Shown piece after piece: positions 333-6,971 of a stretch of DNA of 37,196 nucleotides. Numbering within the stretch: the first letter of the stretch is position 1; each line of letters opens with the position of its first letter. The DNA comes from a virus. Under the pieces are notes generated by a model that was given only the letters and a program-made list of their open reading frames with translations, had not been told where the DNA came from and searched no databases. Location of the stretch: IMG/VR virus record IMGVR_UViG_3300009505_000034, positions 1 through 37,196 of that record; one strand, written 5' to 3'. The position numbers and the translations under genes are program-made.

Positions 333-360
333 TTGTTAATAAAAAAGGTTGTTATATTTG
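333..360 (+). promoter_or_regulatory. Bacteroidota-type promoter for the early operon
   Basis: TATATTTG at 353-360 fits the TAnnTTTG -7 box of Bacteroidota. A TTG at 333-335 lies 17 nt upstream, and an alternative TTTG lies at 328-331. Transcription would start near 366, giving a leader of about 60 nt before the gene at 430 with a small hairpin (374-378/384-388). The box alone is common by chance; the call rests on its place in the gene-free stretch 105-429, directly ahead of a co-directional gene block. A DnaA-box-like TTATTCACA (319-327) and two ATCGTGC copies (228-234, 245-251) lie just upstream. Confidence 0.6.
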
Positions 361-429
361 TACCATCGTTCAACGAGTATGACACTCGAAACGCTTATTA
401 ACTGAATATCAATTATTTAAACTGAAATT

Positions 430-675
430 ATGAATTACTTAAGTACAGAACTGCAAACAGAATACCTTCCAAACTTCATAGGTATCAATGTCCACAACGC
501 TAGAATATCATACAGTAATTGGGGCGAGCATGGTGTTGATTTCAACTACTACAAAGATCCTTCTGATCCATTCAATCAACTATTTCAAGAAGATTTACAT
601 AAGCCTTTTGCAGGCGGTACAGAATTTACTAGCAAAAAAGAAGCCTTAAGATTTATTAACTCTGTAAACCAATAA
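430..675 (+). CDS. Early protein of unknown function, 81 aa
   Basis: First gene of the rightward early block, about 60 nt behind the predicted promoter. The 81-aa product is soluble and rich in aromatic residues and Asn (YSNWGEHGVDFNYY). It ends in a helical stretch that looks like a compact domain (SKKEALRFINSVNQ). I recognise no family. There is no Shine-Dalgarno sequence; the ATG is preceded by the motif ATTTAAACT at 415-423, which recurs before three later early genes. By position it is probably a host-takeover or regulatory factor, but nothing in the sequence proves that. Confidence 0.8.
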   Translation: MNYLSTELQTEYLPNFIGINVHNARISYSNWGEHGVDFNYYKDPSDPFNQLFQEDLHKPFAGGTEFTSKKEALRFINSVNQ

Positions 676-678
676 GCC

Positions 679-747
679 ATGATCTTAATAGCAATCGCAT
701 TACCAATCGGATTAGCCGCAGCCTTCTTAAGAAGCAACAATTATTAA
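679..747 (+). CDS. Possible 22-aa hydrophobic peptide
   Basis: An ATG 3 nt after the previous stop opens a 22-codon frame. It is almost entirely hydrophobic for 15 residues (MILIAIALPIGLAAAF) and ends LRSNNY, as expected of a single-span membrane peptide with a charged tail. It fills the gap before the gene at 784 and is in operon orientation. Its shortness means it could be chance. There is no recognisable ribosome binding site. Confidence 0.4.
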   Translation: MILIAIALPIGLAAAFLRSNNY

Positions 748-783
748 CTACCAATTTAATTTAAACTATTCAATATTATTATT

Positions 784-1059
784 ATGACAAATTCAAATTA
801 CAACACCACAGCAAGATTCGACAGACATTCAAACTTCAATCCAATGATGATGTCTTTCATTCAAACAACGATCAACAACTTACGTAACGGAGGCTTCAGA
901 GCATCTGACCTGGTTAACTCTCTTTACGGAATCTACGATGGTTATTACTACACGAACCTTAGAGCAGAAGCAGATCGTTTATATTCTCATGATATTTTCA
1001 TGCTTAGAGATCTACATGCAATAGCAGACACCCTGGACAACATTACAGCCCAGGCTTAA
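784..1059 (+). CDS. Early protein of unknown function, 91 aa
   Basis: Mainly helical 91-aa protein with a disordered Asn-rich N terminus followed by helices (MMMSFIQTTINNLRNGG, DLHAIADTLDNITAQA). I recognise no family. The leader carries ATTTAAACT at 759-767. The stop codon TAA (1057-1059) is immediately followed by the hammerhead ribozyme at 1060. A ribosome finishing this gene would therefore sit on the 5' part of the ribozyme, and the mRNA 3' end of this segment would be made by ribozyme cleavage. Confidence 0.82.
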   Translation: MTNSNYNTTARFDRHSNFNPMMMSFIQTTINNLRNGGFRASDLVNSLYGIYDGYYYTNLRAEADRLYSHDIFMLRDLHAIADTLDNITAQA

Positions 1060-1113
1060 GATCACTGATGAGCCTGTGAGATCCAGGCGAAACTTCCTCC
1101 GGGAAGTCTGATT
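1060..1113 (+). ncRNA. Type I hammerhead ribozyme, copy 1
   Basis: All core elements are present: CTGATGA (1065-1071), GAA (1089-1091), and the A15.1-U16.1 pair (1092-1107) followed by C17 at 1108, the predicted cleavage site. Stem I is 1060-1064/1109-1113 (5 bp, one G-U, open end, hence type I). Stem II is 1072-1076/1084-1088 with loop TGAGATC. Stem III is 1092-1097/1102-1107 with loop TCCG. Cleavage after 1108 leaves a 28-nt leader before the ATG at 1137. Stem II and its loop match copy 2 exactly, while stems I and III differ but remain paired, which is strong support for the fold. Confidence 0.94.
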
Positions 1114-1136
1114 AATACTAATTTAAACTAAGCAAT

Positions 1137-1472
1137 ATGAATACTGCAACAATTAAAAATGAATTAAAAGAGTACCTAAATGATTTTGTCGCTGACAACA
1201 ACGATGTTAAATGGAATAGCGAAGACAACGATTTACACCAGGAGGCATTTAACCAGGACTATTATTTAATTGGTTACTACAATTGTAATCAATGGCTAGA
1301 GAGTCACGACATCAATATTTTTGATGGTCTCAACTTTGTGCAAGATTACGAAAGAGAGAATTTTGGTGCTGAATCTGTTAGATCTTATCAAGATTCTGAA
1401 GCCCTGGTAAACATGATTACTTACATAATAGGCGAAGAAATAGTAAACGAATTATACACACAAACAATTTAA
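1137..1472 (+). CDS. Highly acidic early protein, 111 aa
   Basis: The 111-aa product has about 22 Asp/Glu against 5 Lys/Arg, spread over its whole length, with many aromatic residues (DYYLIGYYNCNQWLE). This composition resembles phage DNA-mimic and anti-restriction proteins such as ArdA, but I see no diagnostic motif, so that is only a possibility. It is the first gene downstream of hammerhead copy 1; after cleavage its mRNA would begin 28 nt upstream. The ATTTAAACT motif lies at 1121-1129. Confidence 0.82.
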   Translation: MNTATIKNELKEYLNDFVADNNDVKWNSEDNDLHQEAFNQDYYLIGYYNCNQWLESHDINIFDGLNFVQDYERENFGAESVRSYQDSEALVNMITYIIGEEIVNELYTQTI

Positions 1473-1482
1473 ACTCAACAAT

Positions 1483-1740
1483 ATGAAAAACAATAAAATA
1501 TTACAGGAACACAGTACAGGAGACCTAATGGCAGAACTAAAGTCAAGAGGAAAATTTATAGACAATCTTTGGACAACACAAGATGTATTTGGAAGGTATG
1601 ATTGTACTGAAGCCGAAGCACAAGAAGTGCTATACGATGCACTAACCAACGATTCAACAATGGAGCAGATTTGGTTTGCTATAGACTTGGCTGCATACGA
1701 TAATGAATTAACTGAAAGAGAGGAGGCTAACAATGGATAG
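1483..1740 (+). CDS. Conserved-type small phage protein, 85 aa
   Basis: An acidic helical 85-aa protein with the segments STGDLMAELKSRG, DCTEAEAQEVLYDAL and TMEQIWFAIDLAAYD. This looks like a small protein type often seen in phages of marine bacteria and Bacteroidota, but no function is known to me. It starts 10 nt after the previous stop, with ATTTAAACT at 1467-1475. Its last codons carry AGGAGG (1721-1726), which serves as ribosome binding site for the overlapping next gene. Confidence 0.85.
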   Translation: MKNNKILQEHSTGDLMAELKSRGKFIDNLWTTQDVFGRYDCTEAEAQEVLYDALTNDSTMEQIWFAIDLAAYDNELTEREEANNG

Positions 1741-2050
1741 TATTAATATAATTACAGCAAATGATTATTATAACGGATTGATAGCAGAATACATGGATAT
1801 GATTTTTGATGATAACGACAAGTCAATGATGATAGTAAAAACCCCACAAGGTAATGATATCATATACCTTGATGAACTTAAATACCACACCTCTTGGGAT
1901 TGGCTCATGCCTGTAGTAGGAAAAATAAGTCGAGATGAAAGGTTTCTTGATAACGAATACAGAGAGACCCTATTGGATGTCGTTCCTTATGGACGTATTC
2001 AAGATGTCGTAGATGCAGTAGCAAATTTCATTCTACACGTAAAAAAATAA
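1733..2050 (+). CDS. Early protein of unknown function, 105 aa
   Basis: The ATG overlaps the end of the previous gene by 8 nt and has a rare good Shine-Dalgarno sequence, AGGAGG, 6 nt upstream at 1721-1726. The 105-aa product has the stretch YHTSWDWLMPVVGKI, of a kind common in small uncharacterised phage proteins, and a C-terminal amphipathic helix. The function is unknown. Its stop TAA (2048-2050) lies 1 nt before hammerhead copy 2, the same arrangement as at 1059/1060. Confidence 0.85.
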   Translation: MDSINIITANDYYNGLIAEYMDMIFDDNDKSMMIVKTPQGNDIIYLDELKYHTSWDWLMPVVGKISRDERFLDNEYRETLLDVVPYGRIQDVVDAVANFILHVKK

Positions 2051-2051
2051 A

Positions 2052-2103
2052 ACAAACTGACGAGCCTGTGAGATCCAGGCGAAACGCTGAGAAGCGTCTT
2101 TGT
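2052..2103 (+). ncRNA. Type I hammerhead ribozyme, copy 2
   Basis: The core is complete: CTGACGA (2057-2063), GAA (2081-2083), A15.1-U16.1 (2084-2097) and C17 at 2098, the predicted cleavage site. Stem I is 2052-2056/2099-2103 (5 bp, open end). Stem II is 2064-2068/2076-2080 with loop TGAGATC. Stem III is 2084-2088/2093-2097 capped by the GNRA-type loop GAGA. Compared with copy 1, stems I and III have different bases but keep pairing, and N7 changes from T to C, which the consensus allows. Cleavage leaves a 25-nt leader before the ATG at 2124. Confidence 0.95.
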
Positions 2104-2123
2104 ATAACTAAAAAACAATTACA

Positions 2124-2555
2124 ATGCAGACTATTGAAAACCTTAATGCGATTATCAAATTAAACAAAGCCTTAAAAAACCACGATTGGTATTACGAAAG
2201 ATCAGAAGATCCTAGAGTATATAGAAATGGTAGATCACAACGTAACGAGTTAAATATTCTTATGACTGCTATAGGTAATAAGTCTCTTGCTCTCTCCCTA
2301 TACAATAAAGCATGTCCTTGGATTGAGATCATTGAATCTGATGAGGTCACCCCGGATCGTTTCAGCATGAGAGAACAAGCACAGGAATTAATAGACAATG
2401 GAGACTCTACAGAAAAAGCAGAGGGATTTGGAATGATGAGAGTTTTGGATGCGATTATGGATGCTATTGAATATGAAGCAGACAAAGAAGAGGAGCAGCC
2501 AACAGACAGCGATTGTCTTGATCAGATTTACGCAATCTTAAACACCTCAGTATAA
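2124..2555 (+). CDS. Early protein of unknown function, 143 aa
   Basis: First gene of the transcript segment downstream of hammerhead copy 2. The 143-aa protein has a basic N-terminal third (HDWYYERSEDPRVYRNG) and a strongly acidic C-terminal third (EYEADKEEEQPTDSDCLD), both probably helical. No family is recognised. The stop codon TAA shares its last A with the ATG of the next gene at 2555, so the two are probably translationally coupled. Confidence 0.83.
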   Translation: MQTIENLNAIIKLNKALKNHDWYYERSEDPRVYRNGRSQRNELNILMTAIGNKSLALSLYNKACPWIEIIESDEVTPDRFSMREQAQELIDNGDSTEKAEGFGMMRVLDAIMDAIEYEADKEEEQPTDSDCLDQIYAILNTSV

Positions 2556-2863
2556 TGGAAACTTTAAATATTATTAGACAACAGGTAACTACTAGAGGCG
2601 GAGGTATAGAAATATGCCTAGAAAATCAGGGTTATCCAGGAGAAAAAATGACAGCCTACCAAAACTATTTAGGAGGTGGAATTTTAGGTAGAATTGGTAA
2701 CGATTGTACAATTAAAAATTGGGATGAGTCTAAACACCTGGTAGATCTCGCAGACAGTTTAGCAAAGATCATGCACAGGATGACAGCACCAATTTATTTA
2801 CAAGGTGAGGAACTTGAGCAAACATATAGTCAAAATCAATCTATGCCAATAAGTGCATACTAA
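2555..2863 (+). CDS. Early protein of unknown function, 102 aa
   Basis: The start codon overlaps the preceding stop by one base. The 102-aa product is Gly-rich in its centre (YLGGGILGRIGND) and seems to form a mixed alpha/beta domain with a central helix (HLVDLADSLAKIMHRM). No motif or family is recognised. It belongs to the same operon segment as the gene at 2124. Confidence 0.8.
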   Translation: METLNIIRQQVTTRGGGIEICLENQGYPGEKMTAYQNYLGGGILGRIGNDCTIKNWDESKHLVDLADSLAKIMHRMTAPIYLQGEELEQTYSQNQSMPISAY

Positions 2864-2874
2864 AATCAAAAACA

Positions 2875-3021
2875 ATGGCAGTTATAACAAGTAAAAAACT
2901 AACAGAAGTCCAGGATCAATTAATAGATCTTGGATGGGAGACACAGAGAATGTCATCCTCAGGAATAGAATCCTATAATAAATTATGTAGAATATTTAAT
3001 GTTGAAGAAGTAGAATTATGA
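2875..3021 (+). CDS. Small early protein, 48 aa
   Basis: A 48-aa frame from ATG 2875 to TGA 3021, starting 11 nt after the previous stop and overlapping the next gene by 4 nt (ATGA at 3018-3021), typical of a coupled operon. The product MAVITSKKLTEVQDQ... looks like one helix plus a short C-terminal strand and is acidic at its end (NVEEVEL). No family is recognised. Spacing and overlap are the main evidence that it is translated. Confidence 0.7.
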   Translation: MAVITSKKLTEVQDQLIDLGWETQRMSSSGIESYNKLCRIFNVEEVEL

Positions 3022-3383
3022 AACAAGAACAAGAGCAAGTATTTTACAGCGTAACGAAAGCAGTGATCTACGGACAGTTAATGCTTGAAGCGTTAGACGA
3101 TATTAAGGAACTATCAATTTTCAAGCACTCCTTAAAGCATAAGGTGAACCAGGTAGAAAAGGAATTGGAAAAGGAATTGGAAAAGTATATTAATCTGTTC
3201 GCTGAAAACGATGAGCAGTTTTATATGAATATCCAAAACCATATAGACAATTTAGTAACTAAACTTTCAATGCTAGGAGTCGAAGAACTTCCATTGGTAG
3301 CGAAGATCATTGATGAATACATTAACGATAAGGAACATTGGAAAGAGAACTTAACAATACAATTCAAACAATTAAATTCATAA
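3018..3383 (+). CDS. Coiled-coil early protein, 121 aa
   Basis: Almost wholly helical 121-aa protein. Residues about 38-60 are a heptad-rich coiled coil (VEKELEKELEKY) encoded by a tandem 12-bp repeat (GGAATTGGAAAA at 3161-3172 and 3173-3184), so the coil has probably grown by repeat slippage. It overlaps the previous gene by 4 nt (ATGA). The function is unknown; a dimerising adaptor or inhibitor would fit but is not shown. Confidence 0.8.
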   Translation: MKQEQEQVFYSVTKAVIYGQLMLEALDDIKELSIFKHSLKHKVNQVEKELEKELEKYINLFAENDEQFYMNIQNHIDNLVTKLSMLGVEELPLVAKIIDEYINDKEHWKENLTIQFKQLNS

Positions 3384-3385
3384 GC

Positions 3386-3622
3386 ATGGGAACCAATATT
3401 AAAATGGGAAAGTTTATAAAAACGAATGTCCTTGACACGATCTCCAGGAAATATAAATATGATCCGGATCGATCTCTTGTTTATTTAAAAGAGATAACAG
3501 CACAACTTCTAGAGGTTCAAGCCCTGGTAGATGAAACGACAGTGTACATGAATGATGTACTTGACATTAAAGAAAGAATACTAGCACAAGAATTTTTAAC
3601 AAGACAAGGGGATGAGCAGTAA
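3386..3622 (+). CDS. Small early protein, 78 aa
   Basis: I chose ATG 3386, 2 nt after the preceding stop. The frame is open to 3338, but that would overlap the previous gene by 46 nt. The 78-aa product has a basic start (MGTNIKMGKFIKTN) and two helices (SLVYLKEITAQLLEVQALV and VLDIKERILAQEFL). No family is recognised. The next small gene overlaps its end by 11 nt. Confidence 0.7.
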   Translation: MGTNIKMGKFIKTNVLDTISRKYKYDPDRSLVYLKEITAQLLEVQALVDETTVYMNDVLDIKERILAQEFLTRQGDEQ

Positions 3623-3785
3623 AGAAGATCAAGAGTTAAAAGCACAAATAAAAGAGATGTTTCCTAAAGGAACAAGTGAGCAATTTATAAATAATATGTT
3701 TCACAGTTTAAGAGGTAAAAAAATGATATGGGATACTTTTTCTATGAACGATAGTAAAAATATAACAAAGAAGTTCACAGATTAA
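3612..3785 (+). CDS. Small early protein, 57 aa
   Basis: A 57-aa frame, ATG 3612 to TAA 3785, overlapping the previous gene by 11 nt. The product starts with an acidic helix (MSSKEDQELKAQIKEMF) and ends with a basic tail (KNITKKFTD). No family is recognised. Codon use (AAA, AGA, ATA) matches its neighbours. It is the last gene before the leader region of the DnaA-like gene. Confidence 0.65.
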   Translation: MSSKEDQELKAQIKEMFPKGTSEQFINNMFHSLRGKKMIWDTFSMNDSKNITKKFTD

Positions 3786-3793
3786 ATATAAAT

Positions 3794-3821
3794 AATGCTT
3801 AATTTAGCATTGTCAGACGAT
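3794..3821 (+). other. Leader hairpin and 12-bp repeat before the DnaA-like gene
   Basis: AATGCT (3794-3799) pairs with AGCATT (3806-3811). Next to it, TTGTCAGACGAT (3810-3821) recurs identically at 14141-14152 beside the end of the late operon. A 16-codon frame (3795-3845, MLNLALSDDERKLKIN) also runs through this leader and could be a leader peptide. A regulatory or protein-binding role for the region is inferred only. Confidence 0.35.
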
Positions 3822-3852
3822 GAACGAAAGTTAAAAATTAATTAATACTCAA

Positions 3853-4422
3853 ATGAAAAAAGATATGACCACAGTAAACCACGATATAGATATTATTTGC
3901 GATGCAGTAGCAGTAGTAACTAAAGCAGATCCGCACGCTAAAGATAGAGCAAGAGAAAATGTTGATGCCAGGAGAATTGTTTATAAAATATGTAGAGAGA
4001 TGTTGAACCTTACTTATATAAGGATATCAAAATATTTCAACAACAATCACGCTACAGTATTGCATGGTCTTAAACATTTTGATGCTTTATTTGAAACTGA
4101 TAAGGAATTTAGAAGGAATTACAATGCAGTGATGCAAGTAATATCTAGTGTAGAATTTGATAGCAACATCATTGACAGTCAAGATATCCTTGTCGATTTT
4201 GTAAACTTAAAAACAGAGTCAATGGATATTAAACAAAAATATGAGATGCTGTTAAGATCCCTACATTTTAAAGTTACAGATAAAGTAGACGAGTTGCTTT
4301 CCCCAATCGATAATGAATTGTTACATAAGATAATTCAAGACGACAACTGTTCAAAGGATTTACAGCGTACTATTGGTAAAGTCTTGCAAGTAAAAGTAAA
4401 AAACATTATCTTAACACCCTAG
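3853..4422 (+). CDS. Stand-alone DnaA domain IV-like DNA-binding protein, 189 aa
   Basis: Residues about 35-78 match the C-terminal DNA-binding domain of the bacterial initiator DnaA: a helix (ARRIVYKICREM), a second helix (YIRISKYF) and the signature-like recognition helix NNHATVLHGLKHF, where DnaA has RDHTTVLHA. There is no AAA+ ATPase domain; the remaining 110 residues are helical and unassigned. Known DnaA domain IV binds DnaA boxes, so this protein could direct phage replication, compete with host DnaA, or act as a repressor. It follows a leader hairpin and is followed by a structured RNA region. Its stop codon lies inside the hairpin 4419-4425/4431-4437. Confidence 0.8.
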   Translation: MKKDMTTVNHDIDIICDAVAVVTKADPHAKDRARENVDARRIVYKICREMLNLTYIRISKYFNNNHATVLHGLKHFDALFETDKEFRRNYNAVMQVISSVEFDSNIIDSQDILVDFVNLKTESMDIKQKYEMLLRSLHFKVTDKVDELLSPIDNELLHKIIQDDNCSKDLQRTIGKVLQVKVKNIILTP

Positions 4423-4446
4423 TTATCATTTAACTAGCGTACAAGT

Positions 4447-4547
4447 CTGATTACATAGATGTAGTCGGCACATAGAAATACGATTGTAAACAAAATAAAG
4501 ATGATCGGGTCATAAGAAATCCTATGTCTGTCAACTTACAATTGTAT
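4447..4547 (+). ncRNA. Unclassified structured RNA region with a possible pseudoknot
   Basis: Three helices can be drawn. Hairpin P1 is 4447-4454/4461-4468 (8 bp, two G-U). A 12-bp helix is 4478-4489/4536-4547 (one G-U). CTATGT at 4522-4527 can pair with ACATAG at 4470-4475, or with a second copy at 4453-4458 in the P1 loop. The last pairing crosses the 12-bp helix, which makes a pseudoknot. A small hairpin is 4501-4504/4510-4513. It occupies most of the 143-nt gap between the DnaA-like gene and the gene at 4566 and has no open frame of note. It could be a cis-regulatory leader, a small RNA, a ribozyme of a rarer class, or origin DNA. Confidence 0.5.
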
Positions 4548-4565
4548 CATTATTAACTAAACAAA

Positions 4566-4823
4566 ATGAGAAATAAGAAGAAACAACCAAGGAGGCAAAG
4601 ATCGCAAGACATCTTTAGAAAAAAAGCACACGCATTACTTCAAATTCCGGAAATACCAACTACAGAGGTATGTCAGTATATCTACGGAACCAAAGCCAAG
4701 AAGAGTACATTAAACCAAAAGAAAACAGGAGCATCTCCCCTATTTTTTGAGGAGTCATGCAAGATTATAGAATACTATAGTCTTGTAGCCGATAAGATAG
4801 ATGAGATCATCGATGACGATTAG
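4566..4823 (+). CDS. Small basic protein, possible DNA-binding regulator, 85 aa
   Basis: 85 aa with a strongly basic N terminus (MRNKKKQPRRQRSQ) and an acidic end (KIDEIIDDD). The middle (TTEVCQYIYGTKAKKSTL) could be a small helix-turn-helix, but I see no firm family match. It lies behind the structured RNA region, which may be its 5' leader, and 54 nt ahead of a tyrosine recombinase. An excisionase or regulator role is possible but unproven. Confidence 0.7.
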   Translation: MRNKKKQPRRQRSQDIFRKKAHALLQIPEIPTTEVCQYIYGTKAKKSTLNQKKTGASPLFFEESCKIIEYYSLVADKIDEIIDDD

Positions 4824-4877
4824 ATAACTCTAGTTAGTTCTATAACCCACATAACACAATTTTAAAAAAACCTTTCT

Positions 4878-5828
4878 ATGAATACAGGCAGTTTTATCTC
4901 ATTACTTAAGCAAGTCATTACTCTATTAGAGGATGGATCTATTTTAAACTATGGTAAGAAGTTTTCCAATCTTACTATTACCTCTTATAGACAAGTGTAT
5001 AATCAGATGACTGCCTATAAGTTTAACTTTGACATAGAGAGTTTAGATCTTAATAACGTTAACAATAGAAAGGATAGACTTAAGGTCACCCGAAATTTAC
5101 AGTCACATGTAAATAAATATCTAAATCTTATGTTGGACGATTGTAAACACCATAACACTAGAAAAACACACCTTAAGATCATACGAACTACACTTAAGAA
5201 AGCAGAAGCATATTACGGATATATGTTCCCAGGGCTACAAAGTATGAGAGAGTTACAAACAGAAGTCATTGCATTAGATCCAACACAGGTAGAGTTAATA
5301 CATAACAACAACCCGGGAATCGAACTCGAAGATGTTTGGTACTATACCAGGCTAATGCTATACTCTTGCATGAGGGTAAGTGATTTGGTAAACTTCCAGG
5401 CATCATCCGATGGAAGCGAAGTTACTATTATAACTAAAAAAGGAATCGGATCTATATCATCTTTCTATTTACCAAAAGATGTTCGTGATTTCCTGGAGGG
5501 GAAGGGATCTTTTTCTCATTCTCAACAATACTTTAGAGTTCAACTTAAAACGTTGCTTAAATCCTATAAACAATTACACGAAAAGAAAATAGTATATACT
5601 TATGATCACAATGGGAATCCTGTGCATGAGGAAAAATTTCTTTACGACATTATAACTCCACACAAATTAAGAGCAAGCGGAATTACTTACCACTTATCAA
5701 AAGGCTTAAGTGAAATAGAGGCAAGGAATATTAGCGGTCACACAAATGGATCAACAGCATTCTACAGATACGTAAAGCACTCTAATAAATCTTCCATAGA
5801 AAAACAAAAAAAATACTCGACATTATAA
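4878..5828 (+). CDS. Tyrosine recombinase / integrase, 316 aa
   Basis: Phage integrase family with a complete catalytic set: R166 (SCMRVSDLV), K187/188 in the beta-hairpin, H262-x-x-R265 (PHKLRAS), H288 (ISGHTNGS) and a nucleophile at Y296 or Y298. Residues about 1-125 form the core-binding domain (SAM-like), with no separate arm-binding domain, as in Xer-like enzymes. It should catalyse site-specific integration, excision or resolution of the phage DNA. A 17-bp palindrome lies 30 nt behind the gene (5858-5874) and is a candidate binding site. The window has a second, larger recombinase of a different subfamily at 12606-13856. Confidence 0.92.
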   Translation: MNTGSFISLLKQVITLLEDGSILNYGKKFSNLTITSYRQVYNQMTAYKFNFDIESLDLNNVNNRKDRLKVTRNLQSHVNKYLNLMLDDCKHHNTRKTHLKIIRTTLKKAEAYYGYMFPGLQSMRELQTEVIALDPTQVELIHNNNPGIELEDVWYYTRLMLYSCMRVSDLVNFQASSDGSEVTIITKKGIGSISSFYLPKDVRDFLEGKGSFSHSQQYFRVQLKTLLKSYKQLHEKKIVYTYDHNGNPVHEEKFLYDIITPHKLRASGITYHLSKGLSEIEARNISGHTNGSTAFYRYVKHSNKSSIEKQKKYSTL

Positions 5829-5857
5829 TTATCGATATTTAGCACGAATGTTAACAA

Positions 5858-5874
5858 GTTAATAACTTATTAAC
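5858..5874. repeat. 17-bp perfect palindrome next to the recombinase gene
   Basis: GTTAATAA (5858-5865) and TTATTAAC (5867-5874) are perfect inverted repeats around one C. Related GTTAAC/TTAACAA elements flank them (5850-5878). It lies in the 155-nt non-coding gap behind the recombinase. Inverted arms of this size resemble tyrosine-recombinase core sites or a repressor operator. I see no clear promoter box in the rest of the gap (a near match TATAATTG occurs). Confidence 0.55.
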
Positions 5875-5983
5875 AACACTATGGTTCAAGTAGTATATAA
5901 TTGTCATACATTTACCTAAGTATTATATAACTAATCAATATTAGACATTACAATTACCACGACATGAAATACCTATTAAGCAC

Positions 5984-6241
5984 ATGGTCAGATTTGACTA
6001 CGAGAACAAAGAAATTATTCATGATCGTAAGAGATTTTCATTAAGAGATTTCAAAATATTTATGCTTACCTATCACGAACAGATATGCATGGACAGTAGG
6101 ATCAAAGACTGGAAATTTGACTGGGAATCCATCTTATTCCACGCTAGAAAATATTATATAGTAAATTTTTATTTAAACAATTTAAAAAATCAACAAACAA
6201 ATGAAACTGAAACGAAAACTGAAAAAAACATCAATAGGTAG
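5984..6241 (+). CDS. Protein of unknown function, 85 aa
   Basis: 85 aa, charged and aromatic (WKFDWESILFHARKYY), ending in a Thr/Glu/Lys-rich tail. No family is recognised. A 26-codon frame begins just upstream (5965-6045, MKYLLSTWSDL...) in another frame, and which of the two starts is used is unclear. Its last 41 nt overlap the start of the annealing-protein gene, suggesting either coupling or a later start of that gene. Confidence 0.6.
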   Translation: MVRFDYENKEIIHDRKRFSLRDFKIFMLTYHEQICMDSRIKDWKFDWESILFHARKYYIVNFYLNNLKNQQTNETETKTEKNINR

Positions 6242-6734
6242 AGGAGTAGATATCGTGCCATGGATTGAAAGACTAAACTATTTTAATGATTACTTTAGAC
6301 CGGAGGGCTATACCCTACAAACTGAGATAGTTGACATGAACGATAGTATTATTGTTATGACAGGAAAAGTTTATAATTCTGAACAGGTGATAGTGGCAGA
6401 TGGCATAGCACACAAGAAATCCAACGAACCTTTCTCTTATCAGAAATGCCAATCCGGAGCCTTGAATCGTGCATTATTTATACTTGGAATAGTAGATAGC
6501 GGAGAGGATTCTATAATGGATGAAGACGAAGCGAAAGAACTTCAAAGGAACAAAGCATCAAATGGATCAGATATATACCAATCTATGTTGGCATATGTAA
6601 CTGTGGATTACACCGCTGTTGAAAAGCGAATACCTGCTAACAAATCACTCTTAACTAGTGATCAGATCAAGGAATTAAAAGCCCTGATCAATGCCGAGAA
6701 ATCTAAAAAGGCAATAGCACAAGCAAGCAAATAA
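6201..6734 (+). CDS. Probable single-strand annealing protein (Erf/Rad52-like), 177 aa
   Basis: The pattern fits phage annealing proteins. An N-terminal helix (VPWIERLNYFNDYF) is followed by two strands (GYTLQTEIVDMNDSIIVMTG) and the signature-like helix QKCQSGALNRALFILGI, comparable to ETSAvGRALa-LGi in Erf/Rad52-type proteins. The C-terminal third is charged and probably disordered. Such proteins coat 3' single strands and anneal homologous DNA. The partner nuclease, a YqaJ/lambda-exo type enzyme, is encoded just downstream (6968), which is the classic pairing and the strongest argument. The assignment is by pattern, so another OB- or Rad52-fold role is possible. Confidence 0.6.
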   Translation: MKLKRKLKKTSIGRGVDIVPWIERLNYFNDYFRPEGYTLQTEIVDMNDSIIVMTGKVYNSEQVIVADGIAHKKSNEPFSYQKCQSGALNRALFILGIVDSGEDSIMDEDEAKELQRNKASNGSDIYQSMLAYVTVDYTAVEKRIPANKSLLTSDQIKELKALINAEKSKKAIAQASK

Positions 6735-6740
6735 ATATTT

Positions 6741-6805
6741 AGGGAGGCCTCAAGCCAACAAGAATTATTAGTAAGAGCATCCGCACTTACCAGGCCTCCC
6801 TTTTT
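6741..6805 (+). terminator. Intrinsic terminator with a long structured loop
   Basis: AGGGAGGCCT (6741-6750) pairs perfectly with AGGCCTCCCT (6792-6801), and T6801-T6805 forms the T tract. The 41-nt loop holds a second hairpin, GTAAG (6771-6775)/CTTAC (6786-6790). It lies 6 nt behind the annealing-protein stop and just ahead of the ribbon-helix-helix gene, so it would reduce read-through to the exonuclease. Confidence 0.8.
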
Positions 6806-6815
6806 CTAAAATGAA

Positions 6816-6971
6816 ATGATGAAAAGAGGAATTACAGAGAAATTATCAACTAGAATTACTTTTAGACTTACACCAAGAGAGGTTCAGAAACTACACATGG
6901 CATGTGTATCAAAGAACAAAAATATATCTGAAGTAATTAGAGAGTCACTAAAACAAACCTGTGAAATATGA
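6816..6971 (+). CDS. Ribbon-helix-helix protein, 51 aa
   Basis: A 51-aa frame starting with ATGATG at 6816 and overlapping the exonuclease start by 4 nt (ATGA 6968-6971). The layout is that of Arc/CopG-type DNA-binding proteins: a short strand (STRITFRLTP), helix A (REVQKLHMACVSK) and helix B (NISEVIRESLKQ). Such dimers bind operator DNA and often autoregulate. The terminator directly upstream suggests it begins a separately controlled unit with the exonuclease. Confidence 0.75.
   Translation: MMKRGITEKLSTRITFRLTPREVQKLHMACVSKNKNISEVIRESLKQTCEI

Follow-up and report, generated by a model that had tools for sequence, protein, structure and literature searches.

Two hammerhead ribozymes predicted to segment the early transcript of an uncultured, probably Flavobacteriia-infecting phage

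Introduction

What do self-cleaving ribozymes accomplish between the protein genes of a phage early operon? The locus that raises this question lies in a linear virus record from IMG/VR, 37,196 bases long, the whole of which was analysed and is here called the window. A tRNA-Arg gene (28-104) is followed by a rightward early block in which short ORFs without known function precede DnaA-C-like, integrase-like, RecE-like exonuclease and primase/helicase genes, in that order. A sequence-only reading had proposed that a single promoter serves this block and that two ribozymes cut its transcript into three pieces. The purpose of intergenic phage hammerheads has been in question since 2011, when Perreault et al. 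described clustered prophage hammerheads and proposed the cutting of long transcripts into operon- or gene-length mRNAs (PMC3088659); hammerhead gene associations were still described in 2023 as having no known biological reason (PMC10085705).

Ribozyme structure and detection

Both elements lie on the plus strand and show the type I topology, with loops closing stems II and III and an open-ended stem I. HH1 (1060-1113), predicted to cut between C1108 and U1109, is built from stem I (1060-1064/1109-1113, GAUCA/UGAUU), the core CUGAUGA (1065-1071), stem II (1072-1088), GAA (1089-1091) and stem III (1092-1107), the last closed by a C(UCCG)G tetraloop. The corresponding parts of HH2 (2052-2103, predicted cut between C2098 and U2099) are stem I at 2052-2056/2099-2103 (ACAAA/UUUGU), the core at 2057-2063, stem II at 2064-2080, GAA at 2081-2083 and stem III at 2084-2097 with the loop GAGA. 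A 5-bp stem I, a 5-bp stem II and the loop II UGAGAUC are common to the two, and in each the type I core (C3 U4 G5 A6 N7 G8 A9, G12 A13 A14, A15.1-U16.1 and H17, here C) is intact.

The hammerhead core pattern was present in none of 100 shuffled windows, and a covariance model matched the window twice, with scores of 72.9 and 69.5 bits (E-values 1.4e-22 and 2e-21), and at no third place; chance is thus excluded, and the scores themselves are high by construction because HH1 and HH2 were both in the training set of the model, of which the shuffle test and the stem I pairing test are independent. Scanning IMG/VR with core and loop II fixed and few constraints on the stems gave at least 119 stretches. 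Among the 86 distinct matches listed, stem II pairs in 85 and stem III forms a hairpin in 83, while the 5-bp pairing of stem I, under selection on core and loop II only, is found in 78 of 83 matches listed, compared with an average of 13.7, and never more than 24, in shuffles. An alignment of 59 related sequences shows pairing in 96.6% of pair cells (20-36% for slid structures) and 173 double-sided changes compared to 39.5 in shuffles; all three helices are backed by covariation. Judged by structure and covariation, HH1 and HH2 are real type I hammerhead ribozymes for which self-cleavage is predicted, and the sequence-only reading is borne out in calling them ribozymes. Conservation extends to the loop UGAGAU (loop II itself being fixed in the search pattern) and to A residues at positions -1 and -2 before stem I; the stem I flank may contact loop II.

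At the gathering threshold, Rfam makes no hammerhead call in the window. The families RAGATH-1-hammerhead (RF03152) and Hammerhead_3 (RF00008) have the same catalytic core as HH1 and HH2, and the latter has a similar consensus loop II (UGAaAu), yet they score far below threshold (24.4 bits against 56.3, and 19.3 against 48.5, respectively). Across 12 loci, 11 of them holding such ribozymes, there were likewise no calls at threshold. Since structure and covariation are unambiguous, we interpret the miss as a sensitivity gap and not as counter-evidence, and annotated phage genomes probably under-report hammerheads of this subclass.

Folded within about 130 nt of native context, the ribozyme structure lies ~3 kcal/mol above the best alternative for HH1 and HH2 alike, tertiary contacts being uncounted, so that cleavage could be partial. 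The alternative fold of HH1 with the end of the upstream gene g2 is probably incidental; relatives do not keep it, and the penalty there is 0-1.3 kcal/mol. Stem III of HH2, flagged as terminator-like, was rejected as a terminator given that other members have no T run at this place.

The early promoter

With TTTG / TAnnTTTG taken to be the Bacteroidetes promoter consensus, P1 (328-360, plus strand) is typed as a Bacteroidetes-type early promoter composed of TTTG at 328-331, a 21-nt spacer and TATATTTG at 353-360. From it, transcription would start at about 366. The promoter had originally been placed at 333-360; conservation supports its presence but moves the -33 element to 328-331, because relatives conserve TTTG and not the TTG at 333. 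Nearly every relative with sequence at this site has the stretch TATATTTGTACCATCGTTCA (353-372), one mismatch being allowed, and the segment TACCATCGTTCA around the transcript start (361-372, plus strand), identical or with one mismatch in most relatives, is a possible operator. In relatives the P1 block precedes the first ribozyme by 320-712 nt, and TTTG at -33 is conserved in most. Support for P1 comes from this conservation and not from the motif match itself, TAnnTTTG being short enough for ~50 chance copies per window.

Promoters directly downstream of each ribozyme would have offered another source of separate 5' ends, and none of Bacteroidetes type was found at HH1 or HH2. On the plus strand between 361 and 5023 the only other TAnnTTTG (1316-1323) lies inside a gene and is not conserved, and no conserved copy occurs at or just after any ribozyme. 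A scan for E. coli-type promoters gave 29 hits where 22 were expected and was uninformative. Primase similarity to phages of Tenacibaculum, Cellulophaga and Flavobacterium (31-37%) is the sole pointer to Flavobacteriia phages from the cultured-relative search, in which the ribozymes had no meaningful match and g6 and g14 had none; combined with the promoter type, it makes Flavobacteriia the likely host.

Two further promoter-like features were seen. On the minus strand at 3745-3768, at the end of the early block, is a near copy (22/24) of the -7 box and start region of P1, possibly an antisense promoter or operator; in some relatives a minus-strand copy lies at another place, between g14 and g15. 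In L020, L028, L031, L112 and L043, another promoter-like block that is conserved (such as TTTCTTATATTTGCTCAGAACGTCA) is found ~1.1-1.3 kb upstream of P1, a position beyond the left end of the window.

Placement between stop codon and start codon

The early ORFs g1-g7 and g9 are all on the plus strand. Upstream of HH1 are g1 (430-675, 81 aa, no known family) and g2 (784-1059, 91 aa), the stop codon of which (1057-1059) is flush with the ribozyme; between them, a 22-aa hydrophobic ORF (MILIAIALPIGLAAAFLRSNNY) at 679-747 is closely matched in L052 and other relatives. The middle segment opens with a 28-nt leader (1109-1136) and holds g3 (1137-1472, 111 aa, phrog_10208 of unknown function), g4 (1483-1740, 85 aa) and g5 (1733-2050, 105 aa), whose stop (2048-2050) ends one base before stem I of HH2. 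After a 25-nt leader (2099-2123) follow g6 (2124-2555, 143 aa), g7 (2555-2863, 102 aa) and g9 (3018-3383, 121 aa). A defence role for the early ORFs was considered and dropped: there was no PADLOC match, and the sole Pfam match was DnaA_C in 3853-4422.

The near-equality of the two leaders, remarked on in the sequence-only reading, turns out to be more than a two-point coincidence. Among the matches listed, grouped into 84 flank clusters, the distance from cut to first ATG has a median of 31 nt and its commonest value at 27 nt; for ordinary same-strand gaps (range -60 to 200) the share under 20 nt is 58%. The ribozyme is co-directional with both neighbouring genes in 71 of these 84 clusters and with neither in one, and no instance among the 128 listed falls within a sense ORF. 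Of the 65 clusters among the matches listed in which an upstream ORF was detectable, 39 have its stop ending at 0 or +1 relative to stem I, and in six the stop is the UGA of the CUGANGA core itself. These numbers are descriptive, in that flank clustering drops close copies but leaves some shared ancestry, the ORF calls came from a simple script and the measures were chosen after seeing the data. Bacterial and archaeal genome records supplied 17 stretches that were not used in seeing the rule; there, where a downstream ORF was detected, the leader mostly measures 24-37 nt, and stops are flush in most bacterial and Bathyarchaeota cases and 5-10 nt upstream in Thaumarchaeota (seven cases). Such strict placement, across many phages and the out-of-sample set, argues that the cutting serves mRNA maturation. 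Within the open-access literature searched, neither the placement rule nor the subclass below Rfam thresholds appears to have been reported, and the rule may be new.

In the Thaumarchaeota records (L135, L139, L141, L143, L145, L148 and L149), hammerheads of the same loop II type lie 24-29 nt upstream of proteins that resemble each other and are apparently secreted, and AGGAGGTGA is located directly 3' of the cut.

Stops so close to stem I could be understood as a gate. A terminating ribosome generally covers mRNA 3' of the stop codon, here stem I and the core, and cutting would then occur only when the upstream gene is not translated, with the ribozyme reporting translation state. The flush stops, and those inside the core, are what such gating would give, but genome compaction and re-use of the stop's AA explain them as well: A residues occupy -1 and -2 in 45 and 44 of the 56 cases with the stop codon elsewhere, which suggests that a TAA stop also serves in the stem I flank. 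Fast co-transcriptional folding could moreover cut ahead of the ribosome's arrival, and the seven thaumarchaeal cases have their stops too far upstream to be flush. We therefore consider gating by translation unlikely. Equally unlikely is a general intergenic mRNA-processing module in which the stop would contribute to the ribozyme, with the cut ~49 nt further on, and the ~27-nt leader would let a ribosome load beside the folded ribozyme, with cutting coordinated with translation and possibly gated by the terminating ribosome.

Conservation in related phages

Related IMG/VR phages have the early operon in common, with two to four ribozymes at matching junctions. The sites are that following g2, the stretch from g3 to g6 (with one or two) and that preceding g9. 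In whole relative records, covariance-model matches are confined to the early block, with two or three in each. Orthologues of HH1 show compensatory changes in stems I and III, and those of HH2 show them in stem I together with variable length of stem III. The HH1 RNA is ~95% identical among relatives, and the g3 protein 72-74%. In relatives holding g6, the ribozyme is kept in front of this gene. Adjoining genes are exchanged while the ribozyme stays, as illustrated by g5 before HH2 here and a 47-aa ORF at its place in several relatives. Segmentation is not essential everywhere, considering that the junctions after g3 and before g9 have a ribozyme in some relatives and none in the present phage. 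More distant contigs with g3 homologues (L129-L134) have no ribozyme beside g3.

The ribozyme upstream of g9 in L020, L029, L031, L047, L050, L078 and L184 contains a conserved stem III insert of ~30 nt (UUUGAACGA...CAUGAUUUU), which could be a binding site. As a widespread aptamer the insert was rejected, since a pattern scan finds it within a hammerhead in the present phage group only.

Gene exchange beside the ribozymes, the RecE-like exonuclease encoded by the phage and the 29 of 30 bases that HH1 and HH2 share around the core would all be compatible with neutral or selfish passengers spread by recombination at the conserved 29-nt core. However, no larger repeat unit surrounds HH1 and HH2, their stems I and III are unlike while keeping the pairing in both, and orthologous positions persist with compensatory change under strict orientation and spacing, which leaves passengers a very improbable account. 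The chance that HH1 and HH2 excise the 990-nt middle RNA (1109-2098) for ligation into a circle appears slimmest of all: 5'-OH and 2',3'-cyclic phosphate ends are those joined by RtcB-type ligation, but the segment holds ordinary ORFs, ribozyme number varies from two to four among relatives, and the distance from HH1 to HH2 is not kept (992, 1051, 783 and 705 in relatives), on which ground this reading was rejected. Circle-forming hammerhead elements do exist (PMC7761336, PMC4918200), but Perreault et al. sought circles and spliced products in their own cases and found none (PMC3088659).

Proposed processing of the early transcript

The segmentation of one early transcript is favoured by the combination of intact cores, covariation, orthologous junctions, a single promoter with none at the cuts, intergenic co-directional placement, the leader rule, the loops, confinement to the early block and the precedent in PMC3088659. 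Ribozyme structure, orthologous conservation, promoter and intergenic position are evident at the sequence level, and the simplest reading of them is that separate, translation-competent mRNAs arise from one promoter. We consider it probable that one early polycistronic RNA is cleaved by the ribozymes and that the resulting mRNAs can be translated separately and end in 3' hairpins. Transcription from P1 would yield this RNA, in which HH1 and HH2 would fold during transcription and cut after C1108 and C2098, releasing 366-1108, 1109-2098 and 2099-onward with every ORF whole. A 2',3'-cyclic phosphate is the product of hammerhead chemistry, and the two upstream pieces would thus end in ribozyme stems II and III with this group and a tetraloop hairpin, while the two downstream pieces would carry a 5'-OH and begin with a brief AU-rich leader whose length just suffices for ribosome initiation. 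One promoter would thereby give separate mRNAs whose decay and translation are uncoupled; as the sequence-only reading has it, the segments may differ in stability and translation, set without an RNase. From these features we infer the activity of HH1 and HH2, its co-transcriptional timing and the effects on stability and translation. The suggestion that the new 3' hairpins are stabilising receives indirect support from the four-base stem III loops, 33 of 49 of which are UNCG or GNRA.

Anatomy, conservation and lack of a promoter at the cuts uphold segmentation as originally suggested, but not the added suggestion that the layout is possibly undescribed; it belongs to a known phage-hammerhead type: Perreault et al. 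(PMC3088659) described the clusters and proposed the same processing role for prophages. Tandem arrays of theirs cleave in vitro, and one triple array does so in E. coli. Like those clusters, the present one consists of two or more same-strand hammerheads in close series flanking single genes or short phage gene blocks. It differs in its phage, which is uncultured and probably infects Flavobacteriia, in the conserved early promoter and the group-wide orthologous conservation, and in the stop-ribozyme-leader spacing measured here; the text of PMC3088659 makes no mention of stop codons. In haloviruses HF1/HF2, the HHphage hammerhead lies 13 nt upstream of an early gene, and a mapped early-transcript 5' end is ≤3 nt from the cut (PMC3088659); distinct from HH1 and HH2 are its variant catalytic core, the archaeal virus and the single ribozyme at the transcript 5' end. 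Theta ribozymes of gut phages (PMC10879173) are also self-cleaving elements of phage genomes with an RNA-processing role, but have an HDV-like fold and are associated with tRNAs and not placed between protein genes.

The regular placement after a stop codon and ~27 bases before the next gene makes the transcript-cutting idea easily testable, and the rule indicates what to alter in doing so. Other hammerhead arrangements were noticed in passing: L014 has eight in ~5.6 kb (1333-6898) of a 92.7-kb viral contig unrelated to the present phage, and in L023, L036, L061 and L085 hammerheads with other large stem III inserts lie mostly upstream of genes of ~320-360 aa.
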